Assembly: GCF_003056335.1 (NCBI RefSeq)
Contig: NZ_PYWA01000001.1
Location: 1 to 64,000 of the forward strand
DNA from: Paracoccus indicus
GTDB lineage: Bacteria; Pseudomonadota; Alphaproteobacteria; Rhodobacterales; Rhodobacteraceae
Length of the DNA: 64,000 nucleotides
Direction of reading: 5' to 3'
Shown here: positions 25,137 to 56,612 of the stretch, one piece after another
Layout of the letters: the number at the start of each line of letters is the position of its first letter
Position numbering within the stretch: position 1 is the stretch's first letter
The notes under the pieces: model-generated
What the model was told of the DNA's origin: nothing
The model's input: only the letters and a program-made list of their open reading frames with translations
Database searches by the model: none
Translations under genes and position numbers: made by a program

Positions 25137-26060
25137 ATGACCCATTGCATCCTCATCGGCGCGCCCGTGGACGAAGGGCAGCGCCGCCCCGGCTGCCTGA
25201 TGGGCCCTGCCGCCTATCGGACCGCAGGGCTGGCGGGCACCCTGGCCGCCCTTGGCCACAGCGTCGAGGACCGCGGCGATGTCGTCCCCGACGCCCCCGG
25301 CGACCAGACCTGCGACAACCCCGCCGTCCATCATCTGCCCGAAACCATCGCCTGGACGCAGGCGCTGTCTACCGCCACGCAGGCGGCGCTGCCGGACGGC
25401 ATGCCGATCATCATGGGGGGCGATCATTCGCTGGCGCTTGGAACCGTCGCGGGGGTGGCTTCTCATGCGGCCAACATCGGACGTCCACAGTTCGTGATCT
25501 GGCTGGACGCGCATAGCGACTTCCACACGGTCGCCTCGACCACCTCGGGGAACCTGCACGGCACCCCGATGGCCTATGCCAACGGCCAGGCGGGCTTCGA
25601 TCCCTTCCCGGCCTTCCCCAACCCGATACCCGGCGAGAATATCTGCATGTTCGGCATCCGCAGCGTCGATCCGGCGGAATATGCCGCGATGCAGGAAACC
25701 GACATCACCGTGAACGACATGCGCGTGCTGGACGAACAGGGCATCGTCGCGCCCTTGCGGGATTTCCTCGACCGTGTTCGCGCGGCGAACGGGCTGCTGC
25801 ATGTCAGCCTTGATGTGGATTTCCTTGACCCCTCGATCGCGCCTGCCGTCGGCACCACGGTCCCGGGGGGTGCCACCTTCCGCGAGGCGCATCTGGTGAT
25901 GGAACTGCTGCACGAATCGGAACTGGTCACATCGCTGGATCTGGTCGAGCTGAATCCGTTCCTTGATGAACGCGGGCGAACGGCCAAATTGATGGTCGAT
26001 CTGGTCGGCAGCCTGATGGGCCGCAAGGTCTTCGACCGTCCGACCCGCAGTTACGGATGA
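25137..26060 (+). CDS. rocF: Arginase
   Basis: The protein has 307 residues. It hydrolyses arginine to ornithine and urea with a dinuclear manganese centre. The ureohydrolase metal motifs are IIMGGDHSLALGTV (GGDHS), IWLDAHSDFHT (DAHSDFH) and LHVSLDVDFLDPSIAPAVGT (SLDVDFLDP). Arginase rather than agmatinase is indicated by IGAPVDEGQRRPGCLMGPAAYR and the NLHGTPMA loop. A GGAG lies 7 bp before ATG 25137. It is monocistronic; proline or urea genes are not adjacent. Arginine synthesis genes lie 5 kb away with no evident link. Confidence 0.94.
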   Translation: MTHCILIGAPVDEGQRRPGCLMGPAAYRTAGLAGTLAALGHSVEDRGDVVPDAPGDQTCDNPAVHHLPETIAWTQALSTATQAALPDGMPIIMGGDHSLALGTVAGVASHAANIGRPQFVIWLDAHSDFHTVASTTSGNLHGTPMAYANGQAGFDPFPAFPNPIPGENICMFGIRSVDPAEYAAMQETDITVNDMRVLDEQGIVAPLRDFLDRVRAANGLLHVSLDVDFLDPSIAPAVGTTVPGGATFREAHLVMELLHESELVTSLDLVELNPFLDERGRTAKLMVDLVGSLMGRKVFDRPTRSYG

Positions 26061-26139: not shown

Positions 26140-28164
26140 TTACCAAAGCTTTCCCTCGCGGGCATAGAACCGCATGGCTGCCGCCTTGACGAAGGCATCG
26201 GCATCAAGACCCGTCACACCGTCATCGGGTTCGACACCGGCCGCCTTCAGCAGCGGCGCCGCCGCATCGTCGCAACCGATCGCCTTGAGGTGCGCGAAGG
26301 CATCCGAGACGAAATCGATGGCCGGCTTGTACTTGGCGAACTTCGCCCCGTCGTCCTGCCCCAGAACCAGCGCTACCGCGTCCAGCAGAACCGAGGGCGT
26401 CCCGGCCAGCTGCGCTTCGGCCTTGCCGCGTTCCTTGGCGATCATGGTGACCATGCCGCCCTGTGCCTCGACCGCAGTCTTGATGGCATCGGCCTTGGCC
26501 ATGTCGCCGCCATCGCCGATCAGGATGCCGACATTGCGGCCCTTCAACGTGTGCTTGGCGCTTTTCACGATCGACAGCGCGTCTGAGACCGGCATGTCCA
26601 CCACCTCGCGGTGCGGCTTGGCGGGTTCGGGCAGATCCTCGGCCAGACCTTCGGCAACCATCTGGGCCAGATCCTCGTCGATGACGCGCAGATGGCTCAG
26701 GACGCGCTGGATCACGTGACCCAGACCAACCTTCGACAGCTCGAAGGTGATCGCGTCGGCGATGTGGCGCTGTTCCGGTTCGGTTTGGCTGCGATAGAAC
26801 AGCCGGGCCTGGCTGTAGTGATCGCCGAACAGTTCGGGGCGCACGCGCAGCTTCTGGTCGGGTTCATTGCCCAGATCGGTCATCTTCTCGACCGTCTTGA
26901 AGCCCTGATCCGTAGCGCGGGGACCGGGATCCTCGCCCGCCTGATGCAGGCTGTTAGGTTCATAGTTCGCGCGACCCTTGGGGACGGCCATCTGCATCAT
27001 GCCGTCGCGCTGGAAGTTGTGCATCGGGCATTTCGGCGCGTTGATCGGGATCTGGTGGAAGTTCACCGTCCCGAGACGCGACTTTTGCGTGTCCAGATAG
27101 CTGAACAGACGTCCCTGCAGCAGCGGATCGTCGGTGAAGTCGATGCCGGGCACGATATTGGCGGGGCAGAAGGCCACCTGCTCGGTCTCGGCGAAGAAGT
27201 TGTCGGGGTTGCGGTCCAAGACCATGCGGCCGACGATACGGACGGGGATGTCCTCTTCGGGGATCAGCTTGGTCGCGTCCAGCACGTCATAGGGCTGCTT
27301 GGCGGCCCATTCGGCGTCGAAGGTCTGGATGCCCAGCTCCCACTCGGGATAGTCGCCGGCCTCGATGGCCTCCCACAGATCCTGACGGTGGTAATCCTGG
27401 TTCGCTCCGGCGGTCTTGACGGCCTCGTTCCAGACCTGGCTCTGCAGGCCCAGCTTGGGCTTCCAGTGGAACTTGACGAAGGTGGATTTTCCCTCGGCAT
27501 TGACCAGCCGGAAGGTGTGGATGCCGAAGCCCTCGATCATGCGCAGGCTGCGCGGGATGCCGCGGTCCGACATGGCCCACATGACCATATGCATGGATTC
27601 CGGCATCAGCGACACGAAGTCCCAGAAGGTGTCATGGGCACTGGCGGCCTGCGGGTAGCCCTTGTCGGCCTCCATCTTGACCGAGTGGATCAGGTCGGGA
27701 AACTTGATGGCGTCCTGAATGAAGAAGACGGGGATGTCGTTGCCGACCAGATCCCAGTTGCCTTCCTCGGTATAGAATTTGACGGCGAAACCCCGCACGT
27801 CACGGGGCGTATCGACGCTGCCCGCGCCGCCTGCCACCGTGGAAAAGCGCGTGAAGACCGGGATCTTGGTCTTCTTCGACAGCAGGCTGGCAGTGGTCAG
27901 TTCCGGAATGGGATCGGTGCATTCGAAATAGCCATGCGCACCCGAACCGCGGGCGTGGACGATCCGCTCCGGGATGCGCTCATGGTCGAAATGGAAAATC
28001 TTTTCGCGCAGAACGAAGTCTTCCAGCAGGGTCGGACCCTTGGCCCCGGCCTTCAGGCTGTTCTGGTTGTCGGAAATGGGAATGCCCTGGTTGGTGGTCA
28101 GCGTTTCGCCGCCTCGCTGGTGCAATTCGCCTGCTTTGCCGTGCTGATCGGTGATGTCGGACAT
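26140..28164 (-). CDS. katE: Large-subunit catalase (HPII, KatE type)
   Basis: The protein has 674 residues. It dismutates hydrogen peroxide. ATG 28164 ([20 protein letters not shown]) follows a strong AAGGAGG. Haem catalase motifs are [20 protein letters not shown] with the catalytic His (ERIVHARG), the [11 protein letters not shown] Asn motif, and the haem-Tyr region [18 protein letters not shown]. From about residue 520 the extra flavodoxin-like/DJ-1-type C-terminal domain begins ([28 protein letters not shown]), which marks the large clade II catalases. It is complete and monocistronic, and divergent from the tRNA-Leu gene. Confidence 0.95.
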
Positions 28165-28301: not shown

Positions 28302-28612
28302 GCGGACGTGGCGAAATCGGTAGACGCACCAGACTTTAAGGATTTGGAGTGCCCGTCGGGAAACCGGCGGAGTAGAACCGCTCAAATTCGGGGAAAGCTG
28401 AGGGGGGACCCCCCCTGCCAATCCCGAGCCAAGCCCGAGCGATCGGGAAGGTGTAGAGACTAGACGGGCGGCACCTGGGACCCCAGGCGGGGTGACGGTG
28501 AAGGGATAGTCCAGACCACGAACGCCCCGACGGGGCGGCGGCGAAAGTCGAAGTGGTACGAAAATCTGTTTTCCGTAAGGAAGTGCGGGTTCAAGTCCCG
28601 CCGTCCGCACCA
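28302..28612 (+). tRNA. tRNA-Leu(UAA), split by a group I intron
   Basis: The 5' exon (28302-28336) has acceptor GCGGACG, a D arm GCG...CGC with GGTAGA in the loop, and anticodon-stem strand CCAGA followed by CTT. The 3' exon (28561-28612) supplies AAAA, giving loop CTTAAAA with anticodon TAA, then TCTGT, a long variable arm (TTCC/GGAA), T arm GCGGG-TTCAAGT-CCCGC, acceptor CGTCCGC and encoded ACCA. The acceptor pairs 7 of 7. One anticodon-stem pair (C27-U43) is mismatched. The intron lies between T34 and A35, the same site as in cyanobacterial and plastid tRNA-Leu(UAA). Confidence 0.93.
28337..28560 (+). ncRNA. Group I self-splicing intron (IC3-like) in tRNA-Leu(UAA)
   Basis: The intron is 224 nt, with no open frame of its own. 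Core elements appear in order: P (AAATTCGGGGAAAGC, 28384-28398), Q (CAATCCCGAGCC, 28419-28430), R (GGTGTAGAGACTAGACGG, 28450-28467) and S (AAGGGATAGTCC, 28501-28512). R AGACTA pairs with S TAGTCC to make P7, the guanosine site. The intron ends in G (28560). P1 forms between exon CCAGACTT and guide GGATTTGG, with a U.G pair at the 5' splice site. From memory, the core closely resembles the Azoarcus tRNA-Ile intron. A small compact ribozyme that splices without proteins is the expected behaviour. Confidence 0.93.
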
Positions 28613-55526: not shown

Positions 55527-56612
55527 ATGAAACACCTGCTGACCACGGCCGCCCTTGCGCTGACCGTCGCCACCCCGGCCCTGTCCGAAAACTGGACGAT
55601 GACCACGACCTGGCCTTCCAGCCTCGAATTGATCGAGCTGGACAAGCATTGGGTCGAACTGGCCAACAAGCTGGTCGACGACGACAAGCTGACCATCGAA
55701 TTCTTCGACGGCGGCAGCCTGGTTCCGGCGGGTGAGGTCTTCGGCGCCGTCGAATCGAACACCATCCAGGCGGGCGGCGATTGGCCGGGCTATTGGGCGG
55801 GCCGCGACAGCGCCTTTTCGCCCCTTGCCACCACGGCAAGCCTGTTTAACGCCGTCGATTACGTGAACTGGATCCAGGAATGGGGCGGCAAGGACCTCTA
55901 TAACGAGGTCTATGGCAAGTTCGGCATGGTCTATCTGCCCTATGGCGTGACCAACAACGAATCGGGCTTCCGCACCGTCAGCCAGCCGATCCGCACGCTG
56001 GACGACCTGCAGGGCCTGCGCCTGCGCCTGTCGGGGCTGGAACAGGGCAAGCTGCTGGAGAAGCTGGGCGGCAACCAGGTCAGCATGGCCGGCGGAGAGA
56101 TCTATCAGTCGCTGGAACGCGGCGTGATCGACGGGGCCGAATTCTCGACCCCGAACGTCGATTTCTCGGGCGGCTTCCAGCAGGTGACGAAATACTGGTC
56201 GACGCCGGGCTGGCACCAGTCGTCCTCGATCTTCGGCGTGATGATCAACAAGGGCGCATGGGACGCGCTGGACGACGAAACGCGCGAGCGTCTGGAAATC
56301 GCGGCCGACGCCACGCTTCTGTGGTCGCTGGCCTTCACCGAAAAGCGCGCGACCGAAGCCTATGCCCAGTTCCAGGAGGCCGGGACCGAGATCACGCGCT
56401 TGGACGACGCCGCGCTGGAGCAGGTCCAGAAGATGGCCAATGAGACCATCACCGAGGTCGCCTGCGAAAACCCGCTCTCGGCCAAGGTCTATGCCAGCCA
56501 GCTGTCCTACCTGCAGGACTATGGCAGCTGGCGCGAAGCCTCGGCGCCCTTCAACCTGGGCCGCACCCCGAACGGCCCCGACCTGGCCGAGATCCAGGCC
56601 TGCGCCGAGTGA
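55527..56612 (+). CDS. TRAP transporter substrate-binding protein (DctP)
   Basis: The protein has 361 residues with signal peptide [20 protein letters not shown]. The mature start [22 protein letters not shown] and motifs [94 protein letters not shown] resemble TakP-like binders of 2-oxo acids. That substrate is inference. GAGGAG precedes ATG 55527. The gene order Q-M-P differs from the common P-Q-M. Confidence 0.92.

Follow-up and report, generated by a model that had tools for sequence, protein, structure and literature searches.

How a group I intron comes to split a tRNA gene of an alphaproteobacterium, and by what means such a gene spreads, are the questions raised by a locus of Paracoccus indicus lying in the 64,000-nucleotide stretch that we analyzed (the window; contig NZ_PYWA01000001.1). 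The first-pass annotation had proposed a group I intron inside tRNA-Leu(UAA), with a core like that of Azoarcus placed at the insertion site known from cyanobacteria. The intron stands, and the main surprise is the mobility of the intron-bearing tRNA gene rather than the contrast between Azoarcus and cyanobacteria.

The interrupted gene and its intron

The tRNA-Leu(UAA) gene at 28302-28612 is split between U34 and A35 by a group I intron of 224 nt. Its surroundings, exons and intron helices are as follows.

25137..26060, + strand: rocF arginase (TIGR01229)
26140..28161, - strand: HPII-like catalase gene, separating rocF from the tRNA (NF008422, 894.8 bits, below the cut-off of 1102)
28302..28336, + strand: tRNA-Leu(UAA) exon 1, last base U34 (ARAGORN on joined exons; 25 Paracoccus genomes, its own included, have similar exons)
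28337..28560, + strand: group I intron, 224 nt, final base G (RF00028, 40.6 bits; covariation)
28561..28612, + strand: tRNA-Leu(UAA) exon 2 from A35, CCA encoded (evidence as for exon 1)
28333..28350, + strand: P1, exon 28333-28336 with guide 28347-28350, U.G at the splice site (pairs invariant in 30/30 introns)
28353..28370, + strand: P2, GAAA loop (5/7 pairs altered on both sides)
28378..28471, + strand: P3, 28378-28383 with 28466-28471 (drawn fold, covariation test)
28388..28427, + strand: P4, 28388-28393 with 28422-28427 (drawn fold, covariation test)
28397-28398 with 28417-28418, + strand: P5, inside P4 (drawn fold, covariation test)
28429..28451, + strand: P6 and P6a (drawn fold, covariation test)
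28458..28511, + strand: P7, GACTA/TAGTC, 28458-28462 with 28507-28511 (covariation test)
28472..28500, + strand: P8, 28472-28475 with 28497-28500 (3/4 pairs altered on both sides)
28515..28557, + strand: P9 (28515-28519 with 28553-28557), P9a, and P9b with GAAA loop (covariation test)

Removal of 28337-28560 joins the exons into an 87-nt tRNA-Leu with anticodon TAA as read by ARAGORN; among 24 exon joins tried, two give Leu(TAA), this one and an 85-mer. Run without introns, ARAGORN finds no tRNA at 28302-28612, so that the gene is indeed invisible to a tRNA finder that skips introns, as had been anticipated. Elsewhere in the window the same program makes a starred tmRNA call with an odd tag peptide (55887-56285, minus strand). 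The general model RF00028 matches 28327-28522 with 40.6 bits (E-value 4.1e-9 for the 64-kb stretch, 8.4e-9 for the complete genome of 3.5 Mb), under the Rfam gathering score of 50 bits. The match above threshold that had been predicted was thus not obtained, and it is the covariation test that decides for a group I intron; the low score reflects the cut-off of the library, not the class of the intron.

This test took 55 pairs, from P1 to P9b, in 30 introns, namely that of the window and 29 relatives within the genus, aligned with their exon edges. Pairing is kept in 97.5% of the cells against 89.0% after shuffling, 18 pairs are altered on both sides (12.1 in shuffled alignments), and covariation reaches 0.215 as compared with 0.072 for shuffled alignments and at most 0.047 for slid versions of the structure, a comparison in which the unslid version is favored by having been drawn on the window sequence. 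None of 500 shuffles attained the observed values. Since the drawn helices are kept with covariation beyond all shuffles, we conclude that this is a group I intron, in agreement with the original proposal of such an intron in an alphaproteobacterial tRNA-Leu(UAA). The paired core, P3-P8 and P4-P6, is present in the 30 introns, and so are the three hallmarks claimed at the outset: the U.G pair in P1 that marks the 5' splice site (30/30), a terminal G that is invariant, and the P7 pairing, with five pairs of which the last is A-U in 26 introns and G-C in the other four. The least kept helix is P9a, with 84.7% of its cells paired. The intron is presumably of subgroup IC3. The precursor would fold as drawn, as covariation supports; GTP would attack the bond that follows U34, where P1 has its U.G pair, and the exons would then join into a normal tRNA predicted to decode UUA and UUG.

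The host seems to have no other means to read UUA with a dedicated gene. Its genome contains 42 standard tRNA matches, and the eight long (class II) tRNAs, all of them read, are Leu CAA, TAG, CAG and GAG together with four Ser; no second tRNA-Leu(UAA) gene was found in this 36-contig assembly, as had been expected of a functional locus. If the assembly is complete, the window gene is the sole UAA gene and the strain depends on splicing. That the locus is instead silent, UUA being decoded by another tRNA, would agree with the low Rfam score. We consider this extremely unlikely in view of the core, splice sites and exons kept in 25 genomes with compensatory changes, and of the lack of any further UAA gene in the genome searched.

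Probable replacement of the tRNA gene and the elements involved

The distribution of the gene within Paracoccus is patchy. Among 125 genomes of the genus, 25 (that of the window included) have a match over the entire gene, in one case short of the final base; in six others the match covers 221-261 nt and lies in other tRNA-Leu(UAA) genes. The other host genes in those six (L055-L058, L059, L216, L218) have the acceptors CCTCACG, without CCA, or CCCTGCA, with CCA, and the two regions opened around them contain ordinary neighbors, sufBD and cytochrome oxidase among them. At least 64 of the 125 genomes have a tRNA-Leu(UAA) anticodon arm without interruption, with no overlap with the 31 intron genomes; about 30 genomes were assigned to neither set. 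The nine intronless loci that we read encode, compared with the intron-bearing gene, a different tRNA over the full length. Both kinds of gene can nevertheless occupy the same place. In some Paracoccus rocF lies directly upstream of tRNA-Leu(UAA), be it intronless or intron-bearing. Among eight intronless genomes with flanks compared, four have this rocF flank in common with nine intron loci, one has the catalase flank in common with sixteen intron loci, including that of the window, and the remaining three have the gene elsewhere.

Three of the 125 genomes (G013, G114 and G090) retain both genes side by side: the 5' half of the intronless gene up to the anticodon loop, a spacer of 147-158 nt and then the complete intron-bearing gene, the half lying 150-160 nt upstream of it. 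Such a broken half was found in these three genomes of the genus. Homology to the intronless genomes breaks off at the anticodon loop; in G013 it restarts about 0.8 kb past the tRNA. No integrase was found near the unit in the three, and the downstream proteins scanned were ordinary, with a single TrbI at 18-19 kb (L348, in G114).

In all, this arrangement exists in eight alphaproteobacterial genomes, that of the window not among them: a resident tRNA-Leu(UAA) is broken at the anticodon loop, and behind it come a conserved spacer and a second tRNA-Leu(UAA) that is complete and carries the intron. The cases outside Paracoccus, retrieved with a spacer profile, are Bradyrhizobiaceae AGun1, Enterovirga aerilata, Novosphingobium, Mesorhizobium and Phyllobacterium phragmitis, each with a 5' half of its own; Rhodobacteraceae F11138 has the spacer and lacks the tRNA half. 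As a control, we looked for a broken half within 320 nt upstream of intron-bearing Leu(UAA) units; of 111 distinct units with enough upstream sequence, Phyllobacterium not being among them, seven have it and 104 do not. The spacer itself, of about 155 nt (L051 1337-1500 and homologues), is conserved among distant alphaproteobacteria and opens with a short hairpin followed by T's.

Both ends of an element are visible in two genomes, AGun1 and Enterovirga, and the left end alone in six. In AGun1 (L360-L361) the matching 3' half lies about 34.6 kb away beside a tyrosine integrase, and in Enterovirga (L370-L371) it lies 58,348 bp away, also beside an integrase. Joining the flanks restores a tRNA-Leu(UAA) recognized by ARAGORN, of 87 nt in AGun1 and 86 nt in Enterovirga. 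The word repeated at both ends in these two genomes is CTTAAAA, the entire 7-nt anticodon loop, and within the same seven letters falls the intron of the replacement tRNA (CTT|AAAA). The two integrases are 64% identical and each lies less than 200 bp from the right end. The AGun1 cargo comprises a T4SS coupling protein, a CagE/TrbE/VirB protein, a secretion ATPase, ArdC and an ArsA-type ATPase; with its integrase, att repeats and conjugation genes, this is an integrative conjugative element. For the Enterovirga element we found the integrase and the att repeats. Enterovirga shares 95.3% identity over 2124 nt with Paracoccus G114, which indicates recent transfer. No right ends were found in the stretches from the three Paracoccus, Mesorhizobium and Novosphingobium; a strict regular expression recovered none at all, missing even that of L361, and a looser test returned those of AGun1 and Enterovirga plus one unrelated tRNA.

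AGun1 and Enterovirga also contain (L516, L517) a broken tRNA-Leu(CAA) half followed by a related spacer and a complete, intronless tRNA-Leu(CAA). The loops of the broken halves read CTCAAAA in AGun1 and CTAAAAA in Enterovirga, and that of the complete copy TTCAAAA.

Relatives of the integrase on viral contigs were considered as possible users of the same site. That they all share it could be ruled out, given that CTTAAAA occurs within 420 nt upstream in 2 of 19 (L376, L377). These two are the nearest viral relatives (68%), and 183 nt separate their start from a CTTAAAA. This word begins a tRNA-Leu 3' half with a different acceptor stem; judging from these letters, the same site is apparently used in other bacteria.

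No spacer accompanies the window gene, since the spacer profile misses the three loci that contain this gene with its flanks (L029, L030, L106), and no broken tRNA half was found beside it. The window copy would have arrived by an element that was later lost. Because its intron lies outside the 11-row clade of element-borne and related introns described below, only the exon sequence that they have in common and the replacement at the locus tie the window to the elements, and the window copy may be either a domesticated relative or an older resident.

Distribution of the intron type and the plasmid copies

For surveys we built a model, R1, from the 30 cores, RF00028 being too weak a tool in the genus: it finds 26 of the 125 genomes as against 31 by DNA search, and its gathering score is passed in only one. 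R1 matched 27 of 295 genomes sampled in the family, 42 of 337 in the class and 41 of 398 in the phylum, stricter filters having been applied to these samples. The 28 family matches lie in Leu(UAA) (20, own included), Arg(CCU) (3), Thr(GGU) (2), Arg(UCU) (2) and Thr(UGU) (1), and the 48 class matches in Leu(UAA) (about 15, own included), Arg(CCU) (8), Lys(UUU) (7), Thr(GGU) (6), Leu(CAA) (4), Lys(CUU) (2) and Thr(CGU) (2), with four unassigned. Leu(UAA) is therefore the commonest host of R1-type introns in family and class. A pattern scan of named records gave at least 117 stretches, and the 80 listed comprise 47 Leu(UAA), 29 Arg(CCU), 2 Leu(CAA), 1 Thr(GGU) and 1 unread, shares that do not amount to a census as the pattern was derived from these introns. 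Among the matches listed, Leu(UAA) introns are borne by Caulobacter, Phenylobacterium, Rhodovulum, Sphingomonas and Azospirillum records. Since our splice-finder script misread some class I tRNAs, we assigned the labels for Arg, Thr, Lys and Ile by eye from the exons; ARAGORN with introns, run on 30 loci (L030-L059), called 26 of them Phe, Ser or stop and four Leu(TAA). We found no report of group I introns in alphaproteobacterial tRNA-Leu(UAA) in the open-licence literature.

A tree of 100 cores (149 columns, with 35 of its 97 branches left open and a bootstrap that had not settled) groups the introns by host tRNA, with 13 changes against 28.6 after shuffling. One set of 36 rows (support 98/90) consists of 28 Leu(UAA) rows, seven of the eight Arg(CCU) rows and one Ile row. 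This nesting of Arg(CCU) among Leu(UAA) rows, together with the intron's presence in resident-type tRNAs, makes jumps between genes probable. Another clade, of 11 rows (99/80), has the spacer in nine of them; the window intron falls outside it and adjoins L031. The window core is 76-93% identical to nine rows of alphaproteobacterial type, from Leu(UAA) and Arg(CCU) and with a plasmid copy included (78 and 81% for two fetched Arg(CCU) rows), 69-77% to three Leu rows from outside the class, and 58, 71 and 74% to three tRNA-Ile(CAU) rows, the lowest value being that of L211 (match of 73.8 bits), presumably the Azoarcus type. An Azoarcus core at a foreign site, initially put forward as the key point, has to be rejected: the Leu(UAA) and Arg(CCU) rows are nearer than the tRNA-Ile(CAU) rows, and the supposedly cyanobacterial site is common in the class. 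The suggestion that such introns moved between lineages fared better, with the unforeseen twist that the route is element-borne replacement of the tRNA.

Related introns turned up in several other places. One Paracoccus has a second intron of the same kind in tRNA-Thr(UGU) (L217, G060:C30). Core-pattern matches in records titled Acidobacteriaceae and Actinomyces oricola (L299, L328) reflect contamination or far transfer. The Gordonia phage Daredevil (L347) contains an unannotated related core near its integrase gene, and a pattern scan of viral contigs (L396-L515) gave at least 120 stretches, 70 of them read as tRNA-Leu(UAA) introns and 24 unread, by script only. A 2014 review places the phage introns known at that date only in protein genes (PMC3984707).

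In 1266 of 72,556 plasmid records a match to the window gene spans 80% or more of it, with an identity of about 80% (1272 records have any match); the hosts of the 1266 include Escherichia (486), Klebsiella (357), Salmonella (114) and Acinetobacter (78). The stretch formed by the tRNA and a tmrB-like gene is kept to at least 80% in 1226 plasmid records, and the pCTX-M3 copy (L344 6001-6299) has an intact core (R1, 158 bits). In three of four opened regions (pCTX-M3, Acinetobacter and E. coli plasmids) the DNA beyond the tRNA contains a gene for an AAA ATPase as well as aac(3)-IId or a sequence that matches it, the fourth region stopping at the start of its record. The intron-bearing unit is also present in 624 of 5426 complete E. 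coli genomes, with no feature annotated under it in the 15 E. coli rows shown, nor any RNA gene listed in the single opened E. coli region. Upstream of the plasmid unit lies the spacer. Both pCTX-M3 and the first E. coli plasmid have its start at GGACTTAAAA, inside an ORF; the Acinetobacter plasmid has its left end truncated. Blastn gave no match between the Paracoccus spacer and plasmids; the diverged plasmid spacer was recognized by alignment and included in the spacer profile, which thus matches it by construction.

The plasmid intron belongs to the 11-row clade, and the copy fits an element of the same family, at a secondary site, that entered once. Repeated insertions were considered and rejected: the ORF piece at the junction occurs in 1207 plasmid records, in 1201 of them at 99% identity or more, which looks like a single inherited junction. 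The plasmid DNA adjoining tmrB and aac(3)-IId is thereby marked as probably originating from an alphaproteobacterial element, and adjacency suggests that the resistance gene itself may have come with it. The words tRNA and intron are absent, by word search, from the main text of two published accounts of the aacC2-tmrB module.

Origin of the gene and comparison with known systems

We hold it highly probable that the window gene is split by a group I intron and belongs to a family that replaces resident intronless tRNAs and is partly element-borne. Some members ride integrase-bounded elements that insert into the anticodon loop CTTAAAA of the host tRNA-Leu(UAA); insertion breaks the host tRNA, and a complete intron-bearing tRNA-Leu(UAA) arrives just inside the left end. 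The competing idea of vertical inheritance, with an intron ancestral in alphaproteobacterial tRNA-Leu(UAA) and often lost, two tRNA types of Paracoccus that diverged later, and a window gene that is an old resident, accounts for the same site across many families of the class (47 of the 80 listed named loci being Leu(UAA)), for the clustering by host tRNA beyond chance (13 changes against 28.6) and for a window copy without remains of an element. It is hard to reconcile with the patchiness inside one genus, with same-locus intronless and intron-bearing genes that differ over their full length, with both kinds adjacent in three Paracoccus and with the 95.3% identity over 2124 nt between G114 and Enterovirga, and we regard it as rather unlikely. 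Still less likely seems homing or reverse splicing of the intron into a resident gene with co-conversion of the neighboring exon letters. Such a process would explain six genomes of the family with the intron in a tRNA that starts like the resident type, GCGGGCGTGGCGGAA (L110, L112, L116, L120, L122, L125), as well as the Arg(CCU) rows inside the Leu(UAA) set (7/8, 98/90). Yet the introns of the genus, 208-248 nt long, leave no room for an endonuclease gene beside the core, and the Paracoccus tRNA differs throughout, variable arm and acceptor too, which exceeds a short co-conversion.

If replacement by elements is the right explanation, the position of the intron may have a reason. Although more speculative, and to our mind somewhat less probable than its opposite, the intron could confer att-site immunity, shielding the replacement tRNA of the element. 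The integrase would recombine at CTTAAAA, and the intron would split the replacement's copy into CTT and AAAA in the DNA; as it leaves only from RNA, the tRNA would work and yet escape as an integrase target. The element would thus destroy an essential host tRNA and supply a working one, making the host dependent, and chromosomal intron-bearing genes such as that of the window would be domesticated survivors. The sister arrangement in tRNA-Leu(CAA) agrees with immunity, because the core is altered there by one base, not by an intron.

Group I introns in bacterial tRNA genes hence gain a vehicle and perhaps a use. To the old question of how introns without an endonuclease gene spread, these loci add a case in which the whole intron-bearing tRNA gene moves with an integrating element. 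They also illustrate that an essential tRNA gene can stay hidden, as the default tRNA search misses that of the window and the inspected E. coli records have no feature there.

Alphaproteobacterial tRNA-Arg introns were reportedly described by Paquin et al. in 1999. Those in tRNA-Arg(CCU), known from Agrobacterium and, as BbgpI, from Bartonella, resemble the window intron in host class, in their anticodon-loop site and in being hidden from the tRNA finder. BbgpI self-splices, and the passages on these introns in its report mention no link to integrating elements, unlike the present family (PMC7717549). They further differ in interrupting another tRNA and in being inserted, in the rows read, after the third anticodon base.

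The introns of cyanobacterial and plastid tRNA-Leu(UAA) lie between U34 and A35, as in the window. Rudi et al. (2002) are said to have described, judging from their title, recombination affecting the tRNA-Leu locus as a whole, which sets a precedent for the replacement of a gene. The host tRNA is likewise the same, tRNA-Leu(UAA) introns being recorded for cyanobacteria and plastids (PMC4033280). The Azoarcus tRNA-Ile(CAU) intron is likewise small and is detected with the same model as that of the window, but its host tRNA and position differ, the window intron residing in Leu(UAA) and cutting after U34. Finally, the AGun1 and Enterovirga elements resemble integrative and conjugative elements that use tRNA genes in having a tyrosine integrase at one end and a direct repeat of a tRNA piece, plus T4SS genes in AGun1. 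Unlike these, they cut the tRNA in its anticodon loop, leave it broken and bring a whole second tRNA gene whose intron lies across its copy of the att core.
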